This document shows positions 5,685 to 27,826 of a stretch of DNA of 50,052 nucleotides, piece after piece. The notes beneath the pieces were generated by a model that was not told the origin of the DNA, made no database searches, and worked only from the letters and a program-made list of their open reading frames with translations. How positions within the stretch are numbered: the stretch's first letter is position 1; each line of letters begins with the position of its first letter. The translations under genes were made by a program, and so were the position numbers. This DNA is from Lishizhenia tianjinensis. GTDB taxonomy: Bacteria; Bacteroidota; Bacteroidia; Flavobacteriales_D; Crocinitomicaceae. The stretch is taken from NCBI GenBank assembly GCA_945902115.1, contig CAMDLY010000015.1, positions 1-50,052 on the forward strand. The letters are read 5' to 3'.

Positions 5685-7985
5685 ATGGTCGTCAAACGAT
5701 TATTAAAAATTTTTATTTTGAATAAACTCTTTCTTTTTACACTGCTATTTCTGCTTTGTAATTCTCTAACTTTTGCGCAAAGCATTGCCGTAAATACGGG
5801 ACAGACACCTACACAATTGGTTAACAATGTACTACTCGGTTTTGGAGTACAGGCGTTTAACATAACAATTAACGGCAGCGCAGCTTCTTCAAATACTCCT
5901 GTTAATAATGTAACCTCATTTACCAATACAAATCCAGCATTTCCTTTCGGCGCTGGTTTACTTTTAACTACAGGAAATGGTGTAGGCGCTCAAGGACCCA
6001 ACAATTCAACAAGCTCCACGAATAATACTCCTGCAACACCAAATGTTTCTGGAGACCCTCATCTTAACGCAATAGCTAATGGAACGGTCACAAATGGTGT
6101 TGTACTAGAATTTGACTTCATCCCATCTGGAGACACCTTGAGTTTCCGATACATCTTTGGTTCAGACGAATACCCTGAATTTTCACCGTCTTCTTTCAAT
6201 GATGCATTTGGTTTGTTTTTATGGGGCCCTGGGATTTCAGGTGCTTATCCTCTTGGGGGATACCCTGCTGGAGGTGCGAATATTGCAACGATTCCGGGAG
6301 GCATTCCGGTTACAATAAACAATGTTGGCGACGCATCAAACACGGCCTATTATGTTTTTAATGATAATGGCTCAACGTATGGAACAGCTATTCAGTATGA
6401 TGGTGCCACCGTGGTGTTAACCGCTGCAGCAACGGTGCAGTGTAATCAATTGTATCACATAAAGTTGGCTATTTCCAACGTTGGGGACCAATCATATGAT
6501 TCGGGAGTTTTCTTAGAAGCTGGGAGTTTTGCTTCTGATGCTGTCGCAGTTACTGTTGCTACTGTTTCTGGTGATACAACTATTGTTGAGGGGTGTACAG
6601 ATGCAAACTTTATTTTTACCCGTCCCGCTGGACAGTTAGATGATACATTGCTAATTAATTATACTATCACCGGTGTTGCTATAGAGGGTGTTGATTATAA
6701 TTTCTTACCAGACACCATCATTTTCCTACCTGGAGAAGACTCTGTTGTAATTAATTTAACCCCTACACAAGATGGTATAACCGAAGGTTTTGAATCGGTT
6801 ATTATTACTGTGGAAATTATTAATCCTTGTAACGACACCATTTTCTCACAAGGAACAATCTATATTGGAGAAGGCCCTATTATAAATATTACTGAAAACG
6901 ATCCGACTGTTCTTTGTGCAACAGATAGTATTCCTCTGGTTGCATCTGCTTCTGGAGGGTATGCGCCTTACACATATGTTTGGACAGACATTGGGGGGTC
7001 TCCTTTGGGATCTGGTGATACAATTACAGGGGAAATTGTCGAAAATGGTTCTATTCTTTTTCTTGTGACGGCAACTGATTTTTGTAATTTTTCATCGGTT
7101 GATACGGTTACACTTACAATGAACCAAGCCTTATCCATTGACACAATGGGGACTGTTCCCTCCAGCTGTCAGCCAACAGGCGTGGTTTGGGGTATTGCAA
7201 CAGGAACAGTAGGTATTCCTTCTTACAATTGGTCTGGGCCAGGAGCAAACAACTCAAATTTTATTGATGCTTCTGTGTGGGAAAATATTCCGTCAGGTTG
7301 GTATTATTTCGTTGTTAGTGACAATGTTTGTGAAGTAAACGATAGTGTTTTTGTAGATTTACTTGATCCTCCTGTCGCTTCTTTTACTGTTACGCCACTA
7401 AGCGGGTGTGCCCCATTGGAGATAACTCTTGCCAACAATAGTCAGAACGGTACTGCATATATCTGGTCTCTTGGAGATGGCGCCATTCAAACGACAACAG
7501 AACTTGGCTCTTTCACGCATACTTTCCAAGACACAACACAAAACCAAGGATATACTATTCAGTTAATCGTCCAACAAGGAGTCTTGTGTAGTGATACGGC
7601 AGTGATAGGTATTGTTACAACCGTTTGTGGGTGCACAGATCCCGATGCGATAAATTATAACCCTTTAGCCACGGTGAATAATGGTAGTTGTATATTCCCA
7701 AATCCCGTAGTAAACGCTCCAAATGTATTTACGCCAAATGACGACAACGCAAATGAGATATATATACTCGATTGGAAAAACCTTGTGAAACTGCGTTTAG
7801 TTGTTTTGAATCGGTGGGGTAATGTTTTGTTCGATGAAACTAGCAGTGATCTTGTGAATTTCAATCCAGGCTGGGATGGTTACCAAGCACAAGACGGTGT
7901 TTACTTCTATCGGTACGAAGCCGAAGGCATTTCTGGGTCGACAATAGAAGGGCACGGCTTTTTTCATTTAATTAGAAATGAGTAA
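5685..7985 (+). CDS. Secreted protein with choice-of-anchor L, PKD and T9SS type B sorting domain
   Basis: Exported adhesin-like protein of 766 residues. A long signal peptide ends near LTFAQS. Next comes a choice-of-anchor L domain (about 35-260, with LEFDFIPSGDTLSFRYIFGSDEYPEF split over two motifs: LEFDFIPSGDTLSF and YIFGSDEYPEF), a Calx-beta-like stretch (about 285-390, VEGVDYNF-type GVAIEGVDYNFLPD), a PKD domain (about 565-640, ending in a HTFQDT strand), a GCTDPDAINYNP...NGSC cysteine motif, and a gliding-motility-type C-terminal domain (APNVFTPNDDNANEIY, LNRWGNVLF, WDGYQAQDGVYFYRYE). That tail is the type B T9SS signal that usually goes with PorP/SprF-like partners. I chose the ATG at 5685 because the TTG at 5661 lies within the -7 box. 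A hairpin terminator follows. Confidence 0.9.
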   Translation: MVVKRLLKIFILNKLFLFTLLFLLCNSLTFAQSIAVNTGQTPTQLVNNVLLGFGVQAFNITINGSAASSNTPVNNVTSFTNTNPAFPFGAGLLLTTGNGVGAQGPNNSTSSTNNTPATPNVSGDPHLNAIANGTVTNGVVLEFDFIPSGDTLSFRYIFGSDEYPEFSPSSFNDAFGLFLWGPGISGAYPLGGYPAGGANIATIPGGIPVTINNVGDASNTAYYVFNDNGSTYGTAIQYDGATVVLTAAATVQCNQLYHIKLAISNVGDQSYDSGVFLEAGSFASDAVAVTVATVSGDTTIVEGCTDANFIFTRPAGQLDDTLLINYTITGVAIEGVDYNFLPDTIIFLPGEDSVVINLTPTQDGITEGFESVIITVEIINPCNDTIFSQGTIYIGEGPIINITENDPTVLCATDSIPLVASASGGYAPYTYVWTDIGGSPLGSGDTITGEIVENGSILFLVTATDFCNFSSVDTVTLTMNQALSIDTMGTVPSSCQPTGVVWGIATGTVGIPSYNWSGPGANNSNFIDASVWENIPSGWYYFVVSDNVCEVNDSVFVDLLDPPVASFTVTPLSGCAPLEITLANNSQNGTAYIWSLGDGAIQTTTELGSFTHTFQDTTQNQGYTIQLIVQQGVLCSDTAVIGIVTTVCGCTDPDAINYNPLATVNNGSCIFPNPVVNAPNVFTPNDDNANEIYILDWKNLVKLRLVVLNRWGNVLFDETSSDLVNFNPGWDGYQAQDGVYFYRYEAEGISGSTIEGHGFFHLIRNE

Positions 7986-14621: not shown

Positions 14622-16025
14622 ATGAATTATAGAATTGAAAAAGACACGATGGGTGAAGTAAGGGTTCCGGCAGAAAAATACTGGGGAGCACAAACCGAAC
14701 GGTCTCGAAATAATTTTAAAATTGGCCCAGAAGGGTCTATGCCCATTGAAATCATACACGCCTTTGCCTATTTAAAAAAGGCAGCTGCGCATGCAAATTA
14801 TGAATTAGGCGTCCTACCCGAAGGAAAAAAAGAGCTGATTTCACGTGTCTGCGATGAAATTCTAACAGGAATGCACGATCACGAGTTTCCCCTTGTCATT
14901 TGGCAAACCGGTTCGGGTACCCAATCGAACATGAACTGCAATGAAGTTATTGCAAATCGAGGTCACGTGCTTCAAGGCGGACGCCTAAATGATGAAGAGA
15001 AAACTCTTAATCCCAACGACGATGTAAATAAGTCACAATCCTCCAACGATACTTATCCCACGGCAATGCACATTGCGGCATACAAGGCAACAGTAGAAAA
15101 CACTCTTTCCGGACTATCCCATTTACGTGATATACTGCAACAAAAAGTACTAGAATTCAAAGATGTCGTTAAAACTGGAAGAACCCATTTCATGGATGCA
15201 ACACCATTAACACTCGGGCAAGAATTTAGCGGTTATGTGGCACAAATTGATAACTCTATCCGCGCAATAAACAATGCGTTGGAGGCCGTTACAGAACTTG
15301 CTCTTGGCGGGACAGCTGTTGGCACAGGCTTAAACTCACCAAAAGGATACGATGTGCTTGTGGCAAAAAAGATTGCAGACTTTACTGGTTTTCCCTTTAT
15401 TACAGCAAAAAATAAATTTGAGGCTCTCGCCGCTCATGACGCTATGGTAGAGCTCTCTGGAGCCCAAAAAAGAGCAGCTGTAGCACTTATGAAAATCGCT
15501 AATGATATTCGCATGTTGTCCTCTGGACCAAGATGTGGTATTGGTGAAATAATAATCCCAGATAATGAACCTGGATCATCAATTATGCCCGGAAAAGTGA
15601 ATCCAACACAACCCGAGGCGCTAACAATGGTTTGTGCTCAAGTTATGGGAAATGATGTAACGGTTTCAATCGCGGGGTCTAACGGTCACTTTGAATTAAA
15701 TGTTTTTAAACCCGTAATCGCCTACAATGTCCTACAGTCCGCAAGGCTTTTAGGAGACGCCTGTGTCTCATTTGCTGATAACTGCGCAGTGGGTATACAA
15801 GCGAATTTGCCTGTAGTAAAAAAACACCTCGAAAACTCATTGATGCTCGTAACTGCGCTTAACACAAAAATAGGGTATTATAAATCAGCCGAAATAGCCA
15901 AATACGCACACACACATGGAACCACGCTAAAAGAAGCTGCCGTAGGGCTTGGTCATGTAACAGAGGAAGAGTATGACCTTTATGTGGACCCGTCTAAAAT
16001 GATTGGAACAATAAACCCTGAATAG
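14622..16025 (+). CDS. fumC: Class II fumarate hydratase
   Basis: TCA-cycle enzyme that interconverts fumarate and L-malate, oxygen-stable and iron-free, normally a homotetramer. From the ATG at 14622 the protein has 467 residues, the usual length, and begins [25 protein letters not shown] (read [13 protein letters not shown] and [10 protein letters not shown]), which is the standard N-terminus; an ATG 18 bases earlier (14604) would add six residues. Motifs: [23 protein letters not shown], the [12 protein letters not shown] segment with the active-site histidine, and the fumarase/aspartase signature [15 protein letters not shown] (about residues 318-332). The gene stands alone between its own start region and icd, 134 bases downstream; the two TCA-cycle genes have separate promoters. 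Confidence 0.97.
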
Positions 16026-20143: not shown

Positions 20144-20743
20144 TCATTTCGTAAAGACTTGTGTTAATTGAAAAGAATTGTTTAGTAAATCCTTGTACAT
20201 CACCTTGATTGTTATTTTGTTTCCCTTTTCAAGACGGAAAATTTGACTCCTTAGTTCATCGGTAAGTCTGTTTGATTTTACCGCCCACACTGTATTATCT
20301 AAAACAAGTTCGTATTCTAATATTTTTAAGCCCCTATTAAGCTCTCCGCAGATTTTTAACTCGATACTTTCTGGGTTTAATTCTTGGCTTAAATTTTCAA
20401 TACACAAAGAATCTTTTATTTCTTTCTCTACTATTGGAACCAAAAATTTATCCACAAACACCTTTTCTTGTTCCTGTGTTTCTGGATTTTGTAAATACGT
20501 TAGAATATAAATTATTGCCTGTTCCGTCTGTTTAAGCTGATTTACTTTAATGGCATAAACACGGGGGTCTTCTGTGCTATAAATCAAAACAGCCCCGTCC
20601 ATACTCATTGGTACACCTGTCTTTATATAAAAGCTGTTACAAACGTTTTTATATAATAGAGTGTCACCATTCCCATTAAATAAATAGTTTTGCGCTGTTA
20701 CGTAATAACAATTCAATATTAGCAACAATAAACTTAAACGCAT
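20144..20743 (-). CDS. Exported protein resembling the C-terminal domain of GldM
   Basis: Secreted or periplasmic protein of 199 residues. The signal peptide MRLSLLLLILNCYYVTAQN is clear. The remainder is beta-rich: DTLLYKNVCNSFYIKTG, then a middle stretch, and the last 70 residues with LKILEYELVL, SNRLTDELRSQIFRLEKGNKI and TIKVMYKDLLNNSFQL. That last part follows the pattern of the terminal domain of the T9SS motor protein GldM (a V.SF.V strand, a T.E....I..L..G.KI stretch, then the final strand pair), but without the GldM membrane helix and long periplasmic body. This is a pattern-based inference, not a proven homology. It overlaps rpiB by 10 bases on the same strand and so is co-transcribed with it. 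Confidence 0.6.
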   Translation of the reverse strand: MRLSLLLLILNCYYVTAQNYLFNGNGDTLLYKNVCNSFYIKTGVPMSMDGAVLIYSTEDPRVYAIKVNQLKQTEQAIIYILTYLQNPETQEQEKVFVDKFLVPIVEKEIKDSLCIENLSQELNPESIELKICGELNRGLKILEYELVLDNTVWAVKSNRLTDELRSQIFRLEKGNKITIKVMYKDLLNNSFQLTQVFTK

Positions 20744-21171
20744 GCTATTTTATCAATTCTGTGTTGGTGTCTCCCCCCTTCAAAATCCGTGTTTAAGAAA
20801 ACTTCTAAAATTTCTATCGCTTCTTGTTCTGTTAGGAAACGAGCTGGTAGAGCAAGAATATTTGCGTTGTTATGTTCTCTAGCTAATTGTGCTATCTCTT
20901 TTTTCCAACATAACGCACTTCTTATTCCTTTATGTTTATTTGCTGCCATATTAATACCATTCCCGGATCCACAGATAAGTAATCCTAACATTCCTGTATT
21001 TTGCTCAACGTGGTGTGCCACAGGATGAGCATAGTCTGGATAATCGATGCTTTCTTCTGAATGACAACCCATATCAATTACCTCGTAACCCAAGAATTCT
21101 AATTTCTGTTTTAACGTGTTTTTTAGCGTAAATCCTGCGTGATCACACCCTATTGGTATCTGTTTTTTCAT
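20734..21171 (-). CDS. rpiB: Ribose-5-phosphate isomerase B
   Basis: Interconverts ribulose 5-phosphate and ribose 5-phosphate in the pentose phosphate pathway. The 145-residue protein has the LacA/RpiB fold with CDHAG (Asp10, His11), the SIDYPDYAHPVA loop, the active-site Cys67 in LLICGSGNGINMAANK and the phosphate/sugar-binding EHNNANILALPARFL segment with His100. The family's usual CGTG motif is CGSG here. It starts at the edge of the 552-base A+T-rich gap and is followed by an overlapping gene (10 bases) for an exported protein of unknown role. A short GTTTTT repeat lies just upstream of its ATG. Confidence 0.93.
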   Translation of the reverse strand: MKKQIPIGCDHAGFTLKNTLKQKLEFLGYEVIDMGCHSEESIDYPDYAHPVAHHVEQNTGMLGLLICGSGNGINMAANKHKGIRSALCWKKEIAQLAREHNNANILALPARFLTEQEAIEILEVFLNTDFEGGRHQHRIDKIACV

Positions 21172-21238
21172 GTTTTTGTTTTTGTTTGTCTTCCGTAATA
21201 GTTATAAACAGGGAAGAAATATTATTAATTTAAGTTGT

Positions 21239-21268
21239 TGGTAAACAGTCTTTTACCATATTTTTTTA
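21239..21268 (+). terminator. Orphan terminator-like hairpin
   Basis: Stem TGGTAAA / TTTACCA (21239-21245 and 21252-21258), six-base loop, then TATTTTTTT. No forward gene precedes it within 1 kb, since rpiB and its neighbour are on the other strand. It may end a small RNA or be chance. Confidence 0.4.
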
Positions 21269-21428
21269 TACACGTCTTTCTTATATTATTATGCAAATCT
21301 TGTTTATAAGTATTAAGAAAAAAAATTGTTTTCTATGGTGTTTTTTATAAACCTAACTCTTTTTCATTTATGAGTAGAAAGTTAAGTATTTTTATACATT
21401 AGTTAACACCTTGTTTCACACATAAAAC

Positions 21429-21484
21429 TAATGAACACAATAAATATTCCTTAATGAAATTAAATATAAAGACTGTGTTCATTA
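21429..21484. repeat. Inverted repeat, 11-base arms
   Basis: TAATGAACACA at 21429-21439 and its exact reverse complement TGTGTTCATTA at 21474-21484, separated by 34 bases, inside the gene-free region. Confidence 0.6.
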
Positions 21485-21723
21485 ATGTAACTTTCTTTGT
21501 GTTTAGCTTCTATTCTATCTGTTAATATCTTGTGTGTTTCTATTAATAATTTTTTTACTATTCAAAGTTCCGTGTGTTATTAACATATTAACAAGCTTAA
21601 TAAGAATAATAAATTATTTATAAATTAACTTTTATTTAATATTATTATTTAAAGTAAGGGCTGCGTAAATTGAATGTCTGCATGATTTTTGACTAAAGAA
21701 ATTACGTAAATTAGCTACCTACT

Positions 21724-24700
21724 ATGAATCCATTTGAAAAACTTATCGATCAAGTTGACGCTTTCATAAGAAAGTATTACCAAAATCAAATTTTGAAAGG
21801 TTTGTTGTTATTTTCAGTAATCTTAGTATCTACGTTTTTAATAACTACGTCATTGGAATATTTCAATGAATTCAAACGAAATGGAAGGGCTCTATTGTTT
21901 TATGGTTTTATAGGTTCTAATCTTCTAGTTTTATTTTATTATATTGTATATCCAATCCTAAAATTATTTTCCTTTGGAAATAGATTAAATCGTTATCAAG
22001 CATCAGAAATAATAGGTAAGTTTTTTCCAGATATTGATGACAGATTAAAAAACACACTTCAACTGCAGCAAGAAATTGAAAACCAACAGGGAAATATAGA
22101 ACTTCTTAATGCAAGTATAAAACAACGGACTGATGCTTTATTAAAAATTCCTTTCGTTTCTGCAATAAAGTTTTCAGAGAATAAAAAATATCTACCCTAT
22201 GTTTTTTCAGTTTGTATTCTATTTGTATCCTTAATGATTTTTTTACCAAATTTCATAACAGAAGCTACCACTAGAATAGTAAATTACAATCAAGAATTTG
22301 CTCCATTTACTTTTGAATTAAAAACCACTGATTTATCCGTTGAAGAGGGGCAAGATCTGGAAATAAAGATTGAATTAAAAGGTAAAAAAATACCTGAACT
22401 TGTATACCTTGTTGGGGATAATGGAACGTTTTTAATGGAAAGAACCACCAAGAATACTTTTCGTTACATAATGAAACAGGTCAAAAAAGCAACAGTATTT
22501 CATGTGAAATCTAATAACTACAGAAGCCAAGATTTTAATATTAAAGTAACAGGAAAGTCTGCAATTAGTAAAATGGAGGCAAGAATTGAATATCCAACTT
22601 ATTTAGGAAAAAAGAATGAAATAATTCAAAATGTAGGAGATCTAGTTTTACCAGAGGGAACAAAAATAACATGGTTAGTAGCTTTAAAAAATACTAAGCA
22701 GTGTGATGTTTTATGGAATGGTAAAAAAAATGTTGAATTTGGTAATGTATTTACATTAGCAGCAACAGTGAAAAAGGATAACAAATTATCATTAAATTTC
22801 TTTAATAAATTTACAAATAAGTTAGATAGTAGTGTTCACCGTATATCGGTAATAAACGATGAATTTCCAGCAATAGCTATTCAAGAAAGTATAGATAGTC
22901 TAGCAGAAGGCATACGATATTTTACAGGTGAAGTAGGTGATGATTATGGGTTAACCTCGTTATACTTCAACTACTGTTTGATCGCAGAGGATGGAACAAA
23001 AAAGAATAATAAAATATTGGTAAGGCCCGTATCAGGAACCAAGGCTTCTTTTGATTTTGCAGTAGATTTTAGAAGGGAACAAGTTAAAATAAACGATAGA
23101 ATTGATTATTTCTTTACTGTAACGGATAATGACGGTGTAAATGGCAAGAAGGCTACTAAATCTCTCACGTCTTCTTATCAACTACCCAGCCTCACCGAAC
23201 TAAACGAAAAAAGGTCCGATCAACAAGAAAAATCAAAGGAAGATATTGAGAAATTGGTAAAAAGAACCAAAGAATTCCAAAAAAATATTGAAAAACTTAA
23301 AAAAGAAGCTCTAAATTCTAAGTCAACTGATTGGAACAAATTGAATCAAGTAAACCAACTGCAAGAAGAACAAAAAAACTTAGTGGAATCATTGGAGCAA
23401 ATAAAAGAAGAAATGCAACAGAGTGTTTCTGAAAAAAATCAGCTATCGGAGATGGATAAAGAGTTACTCGAAAAACAAGAAATGATAGAAAAGCTGTTGG
23501 AAAGTATAATGGATGAGGAATTAAAAAAATTATTAGAAGAGTTAGAAAAATTACTAGAACAAAATAATAAAGAGGATTTAAAAGAAAAAATGGAGCAGAT
23601 AAATCAGTCTACTGAAGACATGAAGAAACAGCTCGATAGAAGTTTGGAGATGCTTAAAAAAATGCAAGTCAATGAAAAAATCGATGATATAGAAAAAGAA
23701 TTAAAAAACTTAGCTGAAGAACAAAAAGAGTTAAAAAAAGAAATAGAGAAGAAAAGTTTATCAAAAGAAGAATCAGAGAATAAACAAAAGGAGATAAACG
23801 ACAAATATGAAGAAATAAAAAAAGATATTAAGGAGTTAGAGAAATTAAATAAAGAGCTGTCAAAACCACTCGATTTAGGAAATAATGAAGAAAGTAAAGA
23901 AAAAATATCCCAGGAATTGAAAGAAGCACAAGATAAATTAACTGATGGAAAGGAAAAGAAGGCTGGAGAAAATCAAAAGTCAGCCGCGGAAGAAATGGAA
24001 CAATTGGCAATGAGCCTGGATCAGAAGCAGCAGCAAGCAAATAAAAAAGAGCAAACAGAAGATATGGATGCTATAAGGTCCTTACTAGAAAGTTTAATGA
24101 CACTCAGTTTTGATCAAGAAAAAACGATGTATGATTTTGTAAGGATAAACACAAAAGACCCGGCGTATATAAAACACGGAAGAAGGCAAAGAAGAATTAT
24201 AGACGACACAAAAATAGTTAGAGATAGTTTACTGTCGTTGGCAAAAAGACAGGCCGCGATAACCACTTTTATAGATAATGAGTTAAATGCTATATCGACC
24301 AATCACAACCAGGTTGTTGATAATATAGACAACCACAATAAAGGGGCTATAAATAGGAACCAACAAGCCGTGATGACCGCCTATAATAACCTCGCTTTGT
24401 TGTTAAATGAGGCTTTACAAAACATGCAAAGTCAAATGCAGAGTCAAATGCAAGGTTCGGGTCAGTGTAACAATCCTGGAGCAGGAAGACCAAAGCCCGG
24501 CGGAGCGTCACCAGGAGACATGAAAGAGATGATTAAGAAGCAATTAGAACAGATGCAAAAAGGGATGAATTCTGGGGGCACTAAGCCAGGTGACAAACCC
24601 GGAGATAGCCCATCGGAAGGGGGTCAAAATATGTTAGGGCTGGGAAACAAACAAATCGCAAAAATGGCTGCAGAACAAACAGCCATAAGACAGAAACTTG

Positions 24701-25062
24701 AGCAGCTTAGAAATGAGTTAAACAAAGAGGGCCAGGGCCAAGGGAATAAATTAAACCCATTAATTAATGAGCTTGATAAGCAAGAGAAAGACCTTATAAA
24801 TAAACGTTTTAGTAGTGAGATGATAAATAGGCAAAAACAAATACTAACGAGATTATTAGAAAGTGATAAGGCTTTATTAGAGCGGGGGTTTGAAGAAAAA
24901 AGAGAGGCAAAATCCGGAAAAAATGGTCTATTAGGTAACCAAATACGATTTATTGAGTATAACAAACTTAAACTTAAGCAAATTGAAATAATCAAAACCG
25001 TTGACCCTTTTTACAATAAGTATTATAAGATAAAGGCGGGGGAATATTTCAATAGAAATTAA
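21724..25062 (+). CDS. DUF4175 family membrane protein with long coiled coil
   Basis: Large inner-membrane protein of 1112 residues. Three hydrophobic segments near the front (about 25-43, 57-80, 155-177) are followed by an extracytoplasmic Ig-like region (about 195-480, with TTDLSVEEGQDLEIKIELKG and a YFTGEVGDDYGL stretch). From about 490 to 790 it is almost wholly Glu/Lys/Gln-rich coiled coil. The tail (about 900-1000) has a low-complexity QSQMQSQMQGSG stretch and Gly/Pro-rich linkers around PKPGGASPGD and KPGDKPGDSPSEGG. Length and order match DUF4175 proteins of Bacteroidota, whose role is unknown. It starts the forward gene run DUF4175, RsbW-like, ybeY, mnmG, with only 12 bases before the next gene. 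Confidence 0.85.
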   Translation: MNPFEKLIDQVDAFIRKYYQNQILKGLLLFSVILVSTFLITTSLEYFNEFKRNGRALLFYGFIGSNLLVLFYYIVYPILKLFSFGNRLNRYQASEIIGKFFPDIDDRLKNTLQLQQEIENQQGNIELLNASIKQRTDALLKIPFVSAIKFSENKKYLPYVFSVCILFVSLMIFLPNFITEATTRIVNYNQEFAPFTFELKTTDLSVEEGQDLEIKIELKGKKIPELVYLVGDNGTFLMERTTKNTFRYIMKQVKKATVFHVKSNNYRSQDFNIKVTGKSAISKMEARIEYPTYLGKKNEIIQNVGDLVLPEGTKITWLVALKNTKQCDVLWNGKKNVEFGNVFTLAATVKKDNKLSLNFFNKFTNKLDSSVHRISVINDEFPAIAIQESIDSLAEGIRYFTGEVGDDYGLTSLYFNYCLIAEDGTKKNNKILVRPVSGTKASFDFAVDFRREQVKINDRIDYFFTVTDNDGVNGKKATKSLTSSYQLPSLTELNEKRSDQQEKSKEDIEKLVKRTKEFQKNIEKLKKEALNSKSTDWNKLNQVNQLQEEQKNLVESLEQIKEEMQQSVSEKNQLSEMDKELLEKQEMIEKLLESIMDEELKKLLEELEKLLEQNNKEDLKEKMEQINQSTEDMKKQLDRSLEMLKKMQVNEKIDDIEKELKNLAEEQKELKKEIEKKSLSKEESENKQKEINDKYEEIKKDIKELEKLNKELSKPLDLGNNEESKEKISQELKEAQDKLTDGKEKKAGENQKSAAEEMEQLAMSLDQKQQQANKKEQTEDMDAIRSLLESLMTLSFDQEKTMYDFVRINTKDPAYIKHGRRQRRIIDDTKIVRDSLLSLAKRQAAITTFIDNELNAISTNHNQVVDNIDNHNKGAINRNQQAVMTAYNNLALLLNEALQNMQSQMQSQMQGSGQCNNPGAGRPKPGGASPGDMKEMIKKQLEQMQKGMNSGGTKPGDKPGDSPSEGGQNMLGLGNKQIAKMAAEQTAIRQKLEQLRNELNKEGQGQGNKLNPLINELDKQEKDLINKRFSSEMINRQKQILTRLLESDKALLERGFEEKREAKSGKNGLLGNQIRFIEYNKLKLKQIEIIKTVDPFYNKYYKIKAGEYFNRN
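24424..24453 (+). repeat. Short in-frame tandem repeat in the DUF4175 gene
   Basis: The 12-base unit ATGCAAAGTCAA, with one base changed in the second copy, occurs twice and is followed by a partial third, coding for MQSQMQSQMQ. It sits in the Gln/Gly-rich linker near the protein's C-terminus and is a likely site of slippage. Confidence 0.6.
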
Positions 25063-25074
25063 TAGCGTTAAACA

Positions 25075-25488
25075 ATGAAGGAAGGCTATAAGATTATTGA
25101 AAAAGTACAATTACCTACAGACTATAATTCACTTGTCGATGTTGAGACAATAGTGGGCCGTGTTTGTGAAGAATTAGGGGTGTTAGAGGATGCTTACGGG
25201 AACGTGTTGATAGCCGTCACAGAGGCGGTGAATAATGCGATAGAGCATGGCAATGTTTTGAACACAGCCCTTACAGTCGATGTTGCTGTGGGAGATGAAA
25301 AAAATAGTTTTTGTTTCAATGTTAAAGATCAGGGAAAAGGTTTTGATTTTACATGCCTCCCCGATCCTACGGCACCGGAAAATATCCTGAAAGAAAATGG
25401 TAGGGGGATATATCTTATGAGAAATCTCTCTGAGGAGGTTGTGTTTGATTCTCCTGGTAACAGTGTCAATATCTATTTTAGTAAATGA
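25075..25488 (+). CDS. RsbW-like ATP-binding protein (anti-sigma factor/serine kinase type)
   Basis: Protein of 137 residues made only of a GHKL ATPase domain of the HATPase_c_2 type found in SpoIIAB/RsbW. The N box is EAVNNAIEHGN (50-60), the G1 box DQGKGFD (85-91) and the G2 box GRGIYLMRNL (109-118). Proteins of this type bind a partner sigma factor or phosphorylate an anti-sigma antagonist. No STAS-domain antagonist or sigma factor gene lies beside it, so the partner is unknown. It is placed 12 bases after the DUF4175 gene and overlaps ybeY by 4 bases (ATGA), which suggests translation as part of a housekeeping operon. ATP binding is well supported; regulation of a sigma factor is inference. 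Confidence 0.88.
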   Translation: MKEGYKIIEKVQLPTDYNSLVDVETIVGRVCEELGVLEDAYGNVLIAVTEAVNNAIEHGNVLNTALTVDVAVGDEKNSFCFNVKDQGKGFDFTCLPDPTAPENILKENGRGIYLMRNLSEEVVFDSPGNSVNIYFSK

Positions 25489-25925
25489 TATATATTGAAA
25501 ACATGAATGAAGTTATGCAAATTCCGGGTGTTGATCCGGAATTTTTCGTTAGCGTAATTCCTGAGTTAATATTGTCTGAGAATAAACAGTGTGGAGATAT
25601 ATCTTTGGTTTTCTGTACCGACGAATATTTATTAGAGTTGAATAATAAGCACCTTCAACACGATTATTATACTGATATTTTAACCTTTGAATACCCTGAT
25701 AATAAGGGTGTTAGCGGAGATTTGTTTATCTCAATAGACCGGGTAATCGACAATGCCGAGTTATTAACCGTTGAACCAAGAATGGAGTTAAACAGGGTGG
25801 TGTTTCACGGAGTATTACACTTATTGGGGTATTCTGATAAAACACCGGAAGAGAAAAAAGCAATGACAAGAAAAGAGGACGAGTATTTATTACGTTTTGT
25901 TTCACGTGAAACAAAACCAAATTAA
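25485..25925 (+). CDS. ybeY: Endoribonuclease YbeY, rRNA maturation factor
   Basis: Metal-dependent RNase used in 16S rRNA 3'-end maturation and ribosome quality control. The 146-residue protein keeps [14 protein letters not shown], the [10 protein letters not shown] strand and the metal motif [11 protein letters not shown]. In E. coli YbeY the motif is H-x3-H-x5-H; here the third ligand position is Asp118 after His108 and His112, a form I believe is usual for Bacteroidota. It overlaps the RsbW-like gene by 4 bases. Its last codons (residues Val-Ser-Arg-Glu-Thr) are laid over the first parS site, so the C-terminus is partly dictated by that site. Confidence 0.93.
25898..25913. other. parS chromosome-partition site 1
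   Basis: TGTTTCACGTGAAACA is a perfect 16-base palindrome identical to the consensus ParB (Spo0J) binding site. It lies inside the 3' end of ybeY, and three further flanking bases on each side extend the symmetry (TTT on the left, AAA on the right). ParB loads here and spreads, acting with ParA and SMC in origin segregation. parA and parB are not in the window. Confidence 0.92.
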
Positions 25926-25929
25926 TAGG

Positions 25930-25945
25930 TGTTTCACGTGAAACA
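25930..25945. other. parS chromosome-partition site 2
   Basis: Second perfect copy of TGTTTCACGTGAAACA, 16 bases after the first, so the centres are 32 bases apart or about three helical turns, placing both on the same face of the DNA. It sits between the ybeY stop (25925) and the mnmG ATG (25955). Confidence 0.92.
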
Positions 25946-25954
25946 AAAAGCGCT

Positions 25955-27826
25955 ATGTTAGCTCAATACGATATAATTGTTGTGGGTGCTGGTCACGCCG
26001 GTTGTGAGGCCGCTAACGCTGCTGCCTTAATGGGTAGCCGGGTATTACTCGTTACTATGAACATGAATACAATTGCTCAAATGAGCTGTAATCCCGCAAT
26101 GGGAGGTGTAGCAAAAGGACAAATTGTTAGAGAAATTGATGCTTTAGGTGGTGGATCAGGAATTGTTAGTGATAAAAGTGCGATTCAATTTAGAATGCTT
26201 AACCTTTCTAAGGGACCCGCTATGTGGTCGCCCAGAACACAAAATGATAGAATGTTGTTTGCCTCCGAGTGGAGGTTTTTGTTAGAAAATAATCCTTTAG
26301 TTGATTTTTGGCAAGACTCGTGTACGGGTCTTGTTGTAGAAAACAATAAAGTTGTGGCGGTAAAAACAGCACTTGGTATTACAATATACGGAAAAGCGGT
26401 TGTTCTAACGAACGGCACATTTTTAAACGGAGTAATACATCTCGGCGAAAAACAGTTTGGGGGCGGCAGAGCTGCCGAAAAAGCTTCCACGGGGGTAACA
26501 GAAGAACTACAAGGTCTAGGTTTTGAATCAGGGAGGATGAAAACAGGAACCCCTCCTAGAGTAGATGGAAGATCACTAGACTATAGTAAGATGGAAGAGC
26601 AGAAGGGTGATGAAAAACCTTCAAAATTCAGCTTCACAGACACAAAAGCTTTAGTAAAGCAACTGCCTTGTCACATTACCTACACCAACCCGGAAGCTCA
26701 CGATATACTACGCACTGGTTTTGATAGGTCTCCCATGTTTAATGGTGCAATAAAAAGTACGGGGCCAAGATATTGTCCTAGTATTGAAGATAAAATAAAT
26801 CGTTTTTCAGAAAGGGATAGGCACCAAATATTTGTAGAGCCCGAAGGCTGGAATACGGTTGAAATATATGTGAATGGATTCAGCACATCTTTACCTGAAG
26901 AAGTGCAATTAGATGCAATGAAAAAAATACCGGGTTTTGAGCATGCCAAAATGTTTCGGCCGGGATATGCGATAGAATACGATTATTTCCCCCCAACGCA
27001 ACTTCATCACACATTGGAAACAAAGTTGGTCGAAAACTTGTATTTCGCAGGTCAAATTAACGGAACGACCGGGTATGAAGAAGCAGCATGTCAAGGATTG
27101 ATGGCCGGAATTAATGCCCATTTAAAATGTAATGAAAAAGAACCCTTAGTGTTGTCAAGGAATGAGGCATATATTGGCGTGTTAATAGATGATTTGATTA
27201 CAAAGGGCACTAAAGAGCCCTATAGAATGTTCACAAGTAGAGCGGAATTCAGAATTCTTTTAAGACAAGATAACGCAGATATAAGACTTACACCAATCGC
27301 CCATTCTTTGGGTCTAAAAGACCATTCAGCAATGGAGAAACTGAATCTCAAAAAACAAGGCGTTTCAGAAATACATTCGGTTTTAAAGAAAATTGGTGTC
27401 ACCCCGGAAAAATTAAATCCAATGCTTACTCAGAAAGACTCTTCTCCAGTGAGTCAGCAAGTGAAGCTAGCAAGCATTCTTGCCCGTCCGAATATTAACA
27501 TGCTTGACATCGTCCCGTTATCAATAGAATTAGAAGAAAAACATACGTTTTGGTCTGAAATAAACCAAGATATCCCTGAACAAGCAGAAATACAGCTTAA
27601 ATATGAGGGATACATTGAACGCGAAGAGGAACACGCCTCTAAGATGTTGAGGCTTGAGGGCGTGAAAATACCCAAACACATTGATTACCAATTAATTAAA
27701 AGCCTTAGTTTAGAGTCTGTAGAAAAATTAAATAATATTCAGCCCACAACTATAGGCCATGCCTCAAGAATTTCAGGTGTATCACCAAGCGATATTTCTG
27801 TCTTACTCGTACACTTGGGTAGGTGA
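25955..27826 (+). CDS. mnmG: tRNA uridine-5-carboxymethylaminomethyl modification enzyme MnmG (GidA)
   Basis: FAD-dependent subunit that, with MnmE, installs the cmnm5 group on wobble U34 of several tRNAs. The 623-residue protein has the dinucleotide-binding [10 protein letters not shown] (residues 11-20), the [22 protein letters not shown] signature (read [12 protein letters not shown]), the LKTGTPPR-like [13 protein letters not shown] with the Cys-containing substrate loops, [10 protein letters not shown], the [13 protein letters not shown] second signature and MFTSRAEFR. The helical C-terminal MnmE/tRNA-binding region ends [17 protein letters not shown]. mnmE is not in the window. The gene often lies near the origin in bacteria, which agrees with the parS pair directly upstream. 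Confidence 0.97.

Follow-up and report, generated by a model that had tools for sequence, protein, structure and literature searches.

Two parS sites at the ybeY–mnmG junction as the probable centromere of a Flavobacteriales chromosome

The window (the whole stretch of DNA analysed here, 50,052 nucleotides of contig CAMDLY010000015.1 from Lishizhenia tianjinensis) carries two exact copies of the palindrome TGTTTCACGTGAAACA, at positions 25898-25913 and 25930-25945, 32 bp apart from start to start. With a probability of about 0.94 we regard this pair as the chromosomal centromere (parS) of the Flavobacteriales bacterium, with oriC ∼4.3 kb away. The reading draws on the two sites themselves, a ParB with parS-type residues, an oriC-like element, a switch in skew and a place at the junction that is conserved among relatives. 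The activities themselves (binding, loading of clamps, spreading, segregation and the firing of the origin) are projected from established knowledge of ParABS and DnaA: each palindrome would be bound by ParB dimers that, with CTP, form sliding clamps and spread across the ybeY-mnmG region, and ParA would draw newly copied origin regions apart; replication would begin in the AT-rich stretch that separates rpiB from a DUF4175-containing gene, with DnaA attaching to two boxes there and opening the adjoining trio tract.

The first copy lies within the 3′-end of ybeY (25485-25925, forward strand), the gene of an rRNA maturation RNase (TIGR00043, 92 bits against a cut-off of 45; PF02130), and is read there as T-GTT-TCA-CGT-GAA-ACA, that is, VSRET, followed by KPN and the stop codon. 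The second is held by the 29-bp gap between ybeY and mnmG (gidA) and starts 25 nt ahead of the mnmG ATG at 25955; neither copy is assigned a strand. The gene beside which such sites recur, mnmG (25955-27826, forward strand), encodes a tRNA-modifying enzyme (TIGR00136, 839 bits, above cut-off; PF01134). Upstream of ybeY is the gene of an RsbW-like ATPase (HATPase_c_2; 25075-25488, forward strand; PF13581, 82.7 bits, with RsbW models below cut-off), and between the predicted oriC and parS is that of a large DUF4175-containing protein (21724-25062, forward strand; PF13779, 38 bits against a cut-off of 27.3).

Assignment to parS was judged against the palindromic consensus TGTTTCACGTGAAACA, which both copies match exactly. 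The sequence-only reading had placed two perfect parS sites at this junction, with no further full copy in the window; both copies were recovered, and no other is found in the window or in the 2.52-Mb genome (2,517,389 bases in 105 contigs, 99.94% complete), so that exact copies are not scattered. It had also held that the first copy fixes the last residues of YbeY: this is borne out for VSRET, which the site dictates, and not for the final three residues, KPN, which come after it. Allowing up to three mismatches adds a single 3-mismatch match in the window, at 6563, and three matches at this threshold were reached in 0/100 shuffles of the window. Elsewhere in the genome there is one 2-mismatch match, on another contig and with its centre altered to CACCTG, where ∼0.7 matches at up to two mismatches are expected per genome by chance (arithmetic, with equal base frequencies); by the same kind of arithmetic, 2.5 Mb should contain an exact 16-mer ∼0.0006 times.

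The placement of the sites recurs across Bacteroidia. Defining a junction site as one located between the start of the ybeY match and mnmG, we found sites at 59 of 62 usable named junctions, the exceptions being L089, L104 and L114; this is the less biased of our figures, and the related species within it are not independent. The named MnmG loci number 80, 65 with a ybeY match and 15 without; the 18 unusable ones are these 15 together with L041, L055 and L102, which carry sites and failed the gap rule. A site at up to two mismatches occurs somewhere in the locus in 62/65 loci with a ybeY match and in 0/15 without, a contrast confounded by ancestry because most of the 15 are Saprospiraceae (among them Portibacter, Phaeodactylibacter and Lewinella, which we take to belong to that family). 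The full set of 84 junctions comprises the 62 named ones, the window and 21 loci chosen for carrying a site, a biased addition that may repeat some of the named. Single-contig genomes of the class (27 listed: 22 searched, G020 handled earlier, and G687, G703, G720 and G728 left out) carry sites under GTTYCACGTGRAAC in 16 of the 22 searched; mnmG lies within the 3-kb locus in 15 of these 16, and ybeY does so too in 6. The remaining six (G454, G472, G741, G573, G733 and G651) have ParB and no site under the pattern used, and are outside the count of parS–parB distances given below. A search of one library of open-access papers returned no account of parS placement at ybeY-mnmG.

In some relatives further parS-like sites stand at or just past the mnmG stop codon (L047 at 11871, L063 at 11865, L083 at 11857, and similar loci), such that mnmG is flanked by sites on both sides.

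The manner in which the sites are read varies. Over the 84 junctions ybeY wholly contains 51 sites, of which 46 are in the VSRET/VPRET frame (a reading that applies to the exact or near-exact site) and five in the frame giving FHVK/FHVE. Five further sites cover the ybeY stop codon, and in four of these the TGA of the site is itself the stop. In the named set a copy is inside ybeY or over its end at 34 of 62 junctions, and the position can be well upstream: 132 nt ahead of the ybeY stop in a Brumimicrobium-like group and 342 nt ahead in L010. The fact that sites are found in all three ybeY frames implies that it is the DNA, rather than the protein, that is selected, and that the protein bends to the site. 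Neighbouring sites among relatives are 24 to 379 bp apart, and the 32-bp spacing is not conserved. The sequence-only reading had described the two copies as 32 bases, or about three helical turns, apart; the distance is correct, and any meaning in it finds no support, spacing being variable and without significant phase. Helical phasing was tried on 26 distinct spacings (24-136 bp, with 365 and 379 left out) and rejected (R = 0.23 at 10.5 bp, p = 0.25).

The distance to mnmG is more regular. The site nearest to mnmG starts 22-26 nt ahead of the ATG at 34 of the 59 named junctions with sites and at 51 of 81 overall, with a mode at −24 (26 of the 81); at Cytophagales-type and Chryseobacterium-type loci it is farther from the start codon, in the ranges of about −29 to −37 and −64 to −66, and some lie beyond these. 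A start at −24 puts the AAA of the site on −13 to −11 of mnmG. According to a study of Flavobacterium johnsoniae, adenines are over-represented there at −14 to −11, and those at −12 and −13 accompany higher ribosome density (PMC6847099). The position of the AAA relative to this adenine zone suggests that the mnmG-side half-site may be put to dual use. In its full form the idea is that the mnmG-proximal parS of Bacteroidia, through its 3′ half GAAACA, sets AAA at −13 to −11 (within about two bases), an adenine-rich zone favouring translation in bacteria that do without Shine-Dalgarno sequences; the centromere would thereby be fixed relative to a start codon, linking ParB occupancy with the synthesis of MnmG at the origin, with parAB far away and, in the window's own family, near the terminus. 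We put this forward as a speculation that is rather unlikely to hold in full.

A ParB is present, as a search for parB in the genome established: there is one ParB_N gene, on a contig other than the window's (positions 290-1180 of locus L119, contig C54), with the end of parA directly upstream. Its product carries the domains ParB_N, HTH_ParB and ParB_C above cut-off (PF02195, PF17762 and PF23552) and the motifs GERR and ENIQR, which we take to have a role with CTP. Aligned with Noc (7ng0), it carries R and G at two columns that are Q and R in Noc, and the ParB family protein 7bnk in the PDB also has R and G; these are presumably the columns that separate parS from NBS specificity. Two other columns, which we likewise assume to be diagnostic for the parS as against the Noc type, hold H and K, the K being common to Noc. 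A Noc-type identity for this ParB was considered and rejected, given the R and G in place of the Noc residues and a nucleoid_noc score of 238.9 bits, below the cut-off of 315. The ParA fragment consists of the C-terminal 99 residues at the contig start, the remainder of the gene being outside the contig; it matches ParA/Soj structures (best PDB entry 8ray, E 4.6e-20; also 1wcv), and a Pfam search of the 99 residues gave no match. A canonical Smc, the usual partner of ParB, was not found in the genome, where the best score with TIGR02168 (SMC_prok_B) is 25.6 bits against a cut-off of 567. Throughout the order ParB_N is present in 363/399 genomes; parS at up to one mismatch is present in 284/399 and missing from 115/399, counts to be read beside a reversed-pattern control that was positive in ∼25/399 rows.

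We predict oriC in the gap between rpiB (20734-21171, reverse strand; profile matches) and the DUF4175-containing gene: positions 21172-21723, 552 bp at 22% GC, at a skew change point and ∼4.3 kb from the parS pair. Alignment of this gap with the corresponding gaps of ten relatives, all of which rpiB adjoins as it does in the window, revealed a strongly conserved element near the right end, at 21574-21621 on the forward strand. It contains the DnaA-box-like sequences TTATTAACA (21577-21585) and ATATTAACA (21585-21593) and, 12 bp beyond the first of these, five trios, TAA-TAA-GAA-TAA-TAA (21598-21612), the layout in the window being TTATTAACA TATTAACA AGCT TAA TAA GAA TAA TAA; L040 and L043 carry TAATAGTAGTAGTAAA at the element, with trios TAG-TAG-TAG. 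The window boxes are two and three bases off TTATCCACA, the two mismatches being those of TTATTAACA, and TTATCCACA may not be the species' own box. At up to one mismatch of TTATCCACA there is no box in the window gap, and one or two are present in 6 of the 10 relatives; because a box-only search was unsuccessful, the aligned element (11 copies) was used instead. A leave-one-out matrix built without the window gives the window copy 42.4 bits and the next best place in the window 2.8. The gap had gone unnamed in the sequence-only reading.

Applied to 200-kb stretches, the matrix made from the window and ten relatives returned one outstanding match in each of three genomes: in G106 (44.6 bits) 11.9 kb, in G130 (42.0 bits) 12.1 kb and in G109 (42.7 bits) 7.7 kb upstream of mnmG. 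In G100 the match is weaker (27.5 bits, next best 10.2) and 21.9 kb from mnmG. The motif was not found in a number of other scanned loci, several of which cover the stretch before mnmG incompletely. By eye, L074, L075, L078, L080 and L088 show a box/trio-like stretch near 14670-14862, ∼2.8-3 kb downstream of mnmG, with low matrix scores (−0.7 to 16.8 bits); in these genomes oriC may be on the opposite side of mnmG.

The element may be compared with the basal unwinding system (BUS) of bacterial origins, described in PMC8287927 as DnaA boxes followed by trios of consensus 3′-GAT-5′, with spacers peaking at 10-13 bp, and recognised by three or more trios no farther than 16 bp from a DnaA box. The layout here resembles it in the two box-like sequences in tandem, the 12 bp that separate the first of them from the trios, and a run of three trios or more, whereas the boxes here are diverged from TTATCCACA and dnaA is distant. 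The gap is a strong candidate for oriC on sequence grounds, and DnaA binding and origin firing there are predictions taken from what is established for DnaA.

Skew points to the same place. Plain GC skew of the window is noisy owing to gene strand, and we therefore used third-position GC skew per gene, corrected for gene strand. The best split falls between the genes centred at 20969 and 23387: 12 of the 15 genes on the left have negative skew, 20 of the 26 on the right have positive skew, and 2/400 permutations of gene order equalled it. The earlier claim that the sites are origin-proximal is upheld by this sign change, 4 kb away at the AT-rich gap with its DnaA-box/DnaA-trio-like element. 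As the genome itself is in 105 contigs, genome-wide skew was sampled in relatives only. At 20 places each in G106, G109 and G100, strand-averaged third-position skew takes, with a few exceptions, a negative sign on one flank of mnmG and a positive sign on the opposite flank, some sampled windows having too few genes on one strand; the change lies near mnmG in G106 and G100 and is weakest in G109. Skew in G020, from another family, is noisy and weakly in line. Local change points are 11.9 kb from mnmG in G106, 9.7 kb in G130 (its second- to fourth-best splits fall at 10.9-13.3 kb) and 11.4 kb in G100, where a split at 20.8 kb is nearly equal and the oriC motif is at 21.9 kb; in G109 the local fit failed, its best split being 45 kb away with the sign reversed. 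The element is at or near the skew minimum in the window, G106 and G130, is not so in the local fit of G109, and is ambiguous in G100.

In most described species parAB lies near the sites, an arrangement that is usual and not defining, parS being defined by ParB binding. A reading that had ParB genes near the sites finds no support: parB is on another contig here and far off in closed relatives. Among 22 single-contig genomes with both, parB is 300 kb to 2.3 Mb from parS, or 0.15-0.99 of a half-chromosome with a mean of 0.62 (genome lengths are exact for G100, G106 and G109 and rounded for the other 19); compared with a uniform distribution these distances give a Kolmogorov–Smirnov p of 0.046 (n = 22; the genomes are related and do not count as independent). 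In the window's own family, taken as Crocinitomicaceae and represented by four single-contig genomes, parB is separated from parS by 0.88-0.99 of a half-chromosome, which puts it close to the antipode, and dnaA by 0.75-0.83. The same range for dnaA holds in five of the six genomes checked, the sixth being G002 at 0.22. The single-contig records of G106 and G100 start at dnaA, 1.6-1.7 Mb from the skew switch at parS/mnmG.

Several other explanations for the palindromes deserve weighing. Each site could be read as a pair of DnaA boxes (TGTTTCACG twice), a part of oriC and not a centromere, as Ori-Finder proposed for an identical 16-mer next to gidA in Bradyrhizobiaceae (PMC2275245). Against this, the genome encodes a parS-type ParB, a separate DnaA-box/trio-like element lies 4.3 kb off at the skew switch, and in G106 and G130 both skew and element point to a position ∼10-12 kb from parS; moreover, PMC7022226 gives the 16-mer as the Hyphomonas neptunium parS, with close variants in Caulobacter and Burkholderia. 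We consider it very improbable. Better placed, if still improbable, is the proposal that the sites are mainly a regulatory operator, with ParB at the second copy repressing or tuning mnmG and segregation secondary: the mnmG-side start keeps to 22-26 nt ahead of the ATG in the proportions given above while the other copy moves, and in P. aeruginosa ParB bound to the intergenic sites parS3 and parS4 acts as a repressor of the gene that follows (PMC7022226). Copies within ybeY and at the end of mnmG would however make poor mnmG operators, and placement adjacent to oriC is what a centromere needs.

That the first copy merely reflects a VSRET motif needed by YbeY, its match to parS being incidental, draws on the recurrence of VSRET or VPRET at the YbeY C-termini of relatives. 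Yet the same DNA also appears as FHVK/FHVE, in the third frame as the source of the ybeY stop codon, and at positions 132 or 342 nt ahead of that codon, and the probability that VSRET would be spelled as it is here is 0.0034 (from the codon usage of 17 window ORFs); this explanation is more doubtful again than that of DnaA boxes. As for a short palindrome arising by chance, the exact 16-mer is hardly expected even once in a genome of this size, two are found 32 bp apart, and the arrangement is conserved in Bacteroidia, which leaves chance a negligible share.

The centromere reading stands well ahead of these. The element itself is ordinary and of a known kind, a canonical chromosomal parS pair; the added interest lies in its recurring place beside mnmG, its near-fixed distance from a start codon and its separation from parAB. 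Together, parS and the DnaA-type element would allow origins to be placed from sequence alone in such genomes, where dnaA misleads. With parS anchored at ybeY-mnmG and parAB far away, it may be asked how centromere and protein genes came to part in a bacterial class, and whether a parS can double as a translation signal.

Set beside chromosomal ParABS systems such as those of Bacillus subtilis (Spo0J) and Caulobacter (ParB), the present one shares the palindrome, a ParB built of ParB_N, HTH and C-terminal domains, a parA end directly upstream of parB and a cluster of sites near the predicted oriC; it differs in that one copy is coding and a canonical Smc was not detected in this genome, and, unlike in most described ParABS species, parAB is not near the sites. 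A study of gut bacteria including two Bacteroidetes found no known condensin in those two, with which our lack of an SMC_prok_B match above cut-off agrees, and located ori from parS clusters together with Hi-C, ori not necessarily being at dnaA (PMC10197239). The likeness is that a parS cluster marks ori and dnaA does not always do so; the difference is that the words 'gidA' and 'mnmG' are absent from the text of that study, with no statement on placement at mnmG seen in it. Origins adjacent to gidA/mnmG are known from Bradyrhizobiaceae and, as gidA-mioC, from the E. coli type, and resemble the present case in having mnmG/gidA beside the origin region. The Ori-Finder case in Bradyrhizobiaceae shares the very same 16-mer: there it was read as DnaA boxes (PMC2275245), whereas here a separate element of DnaA type accompanies it.
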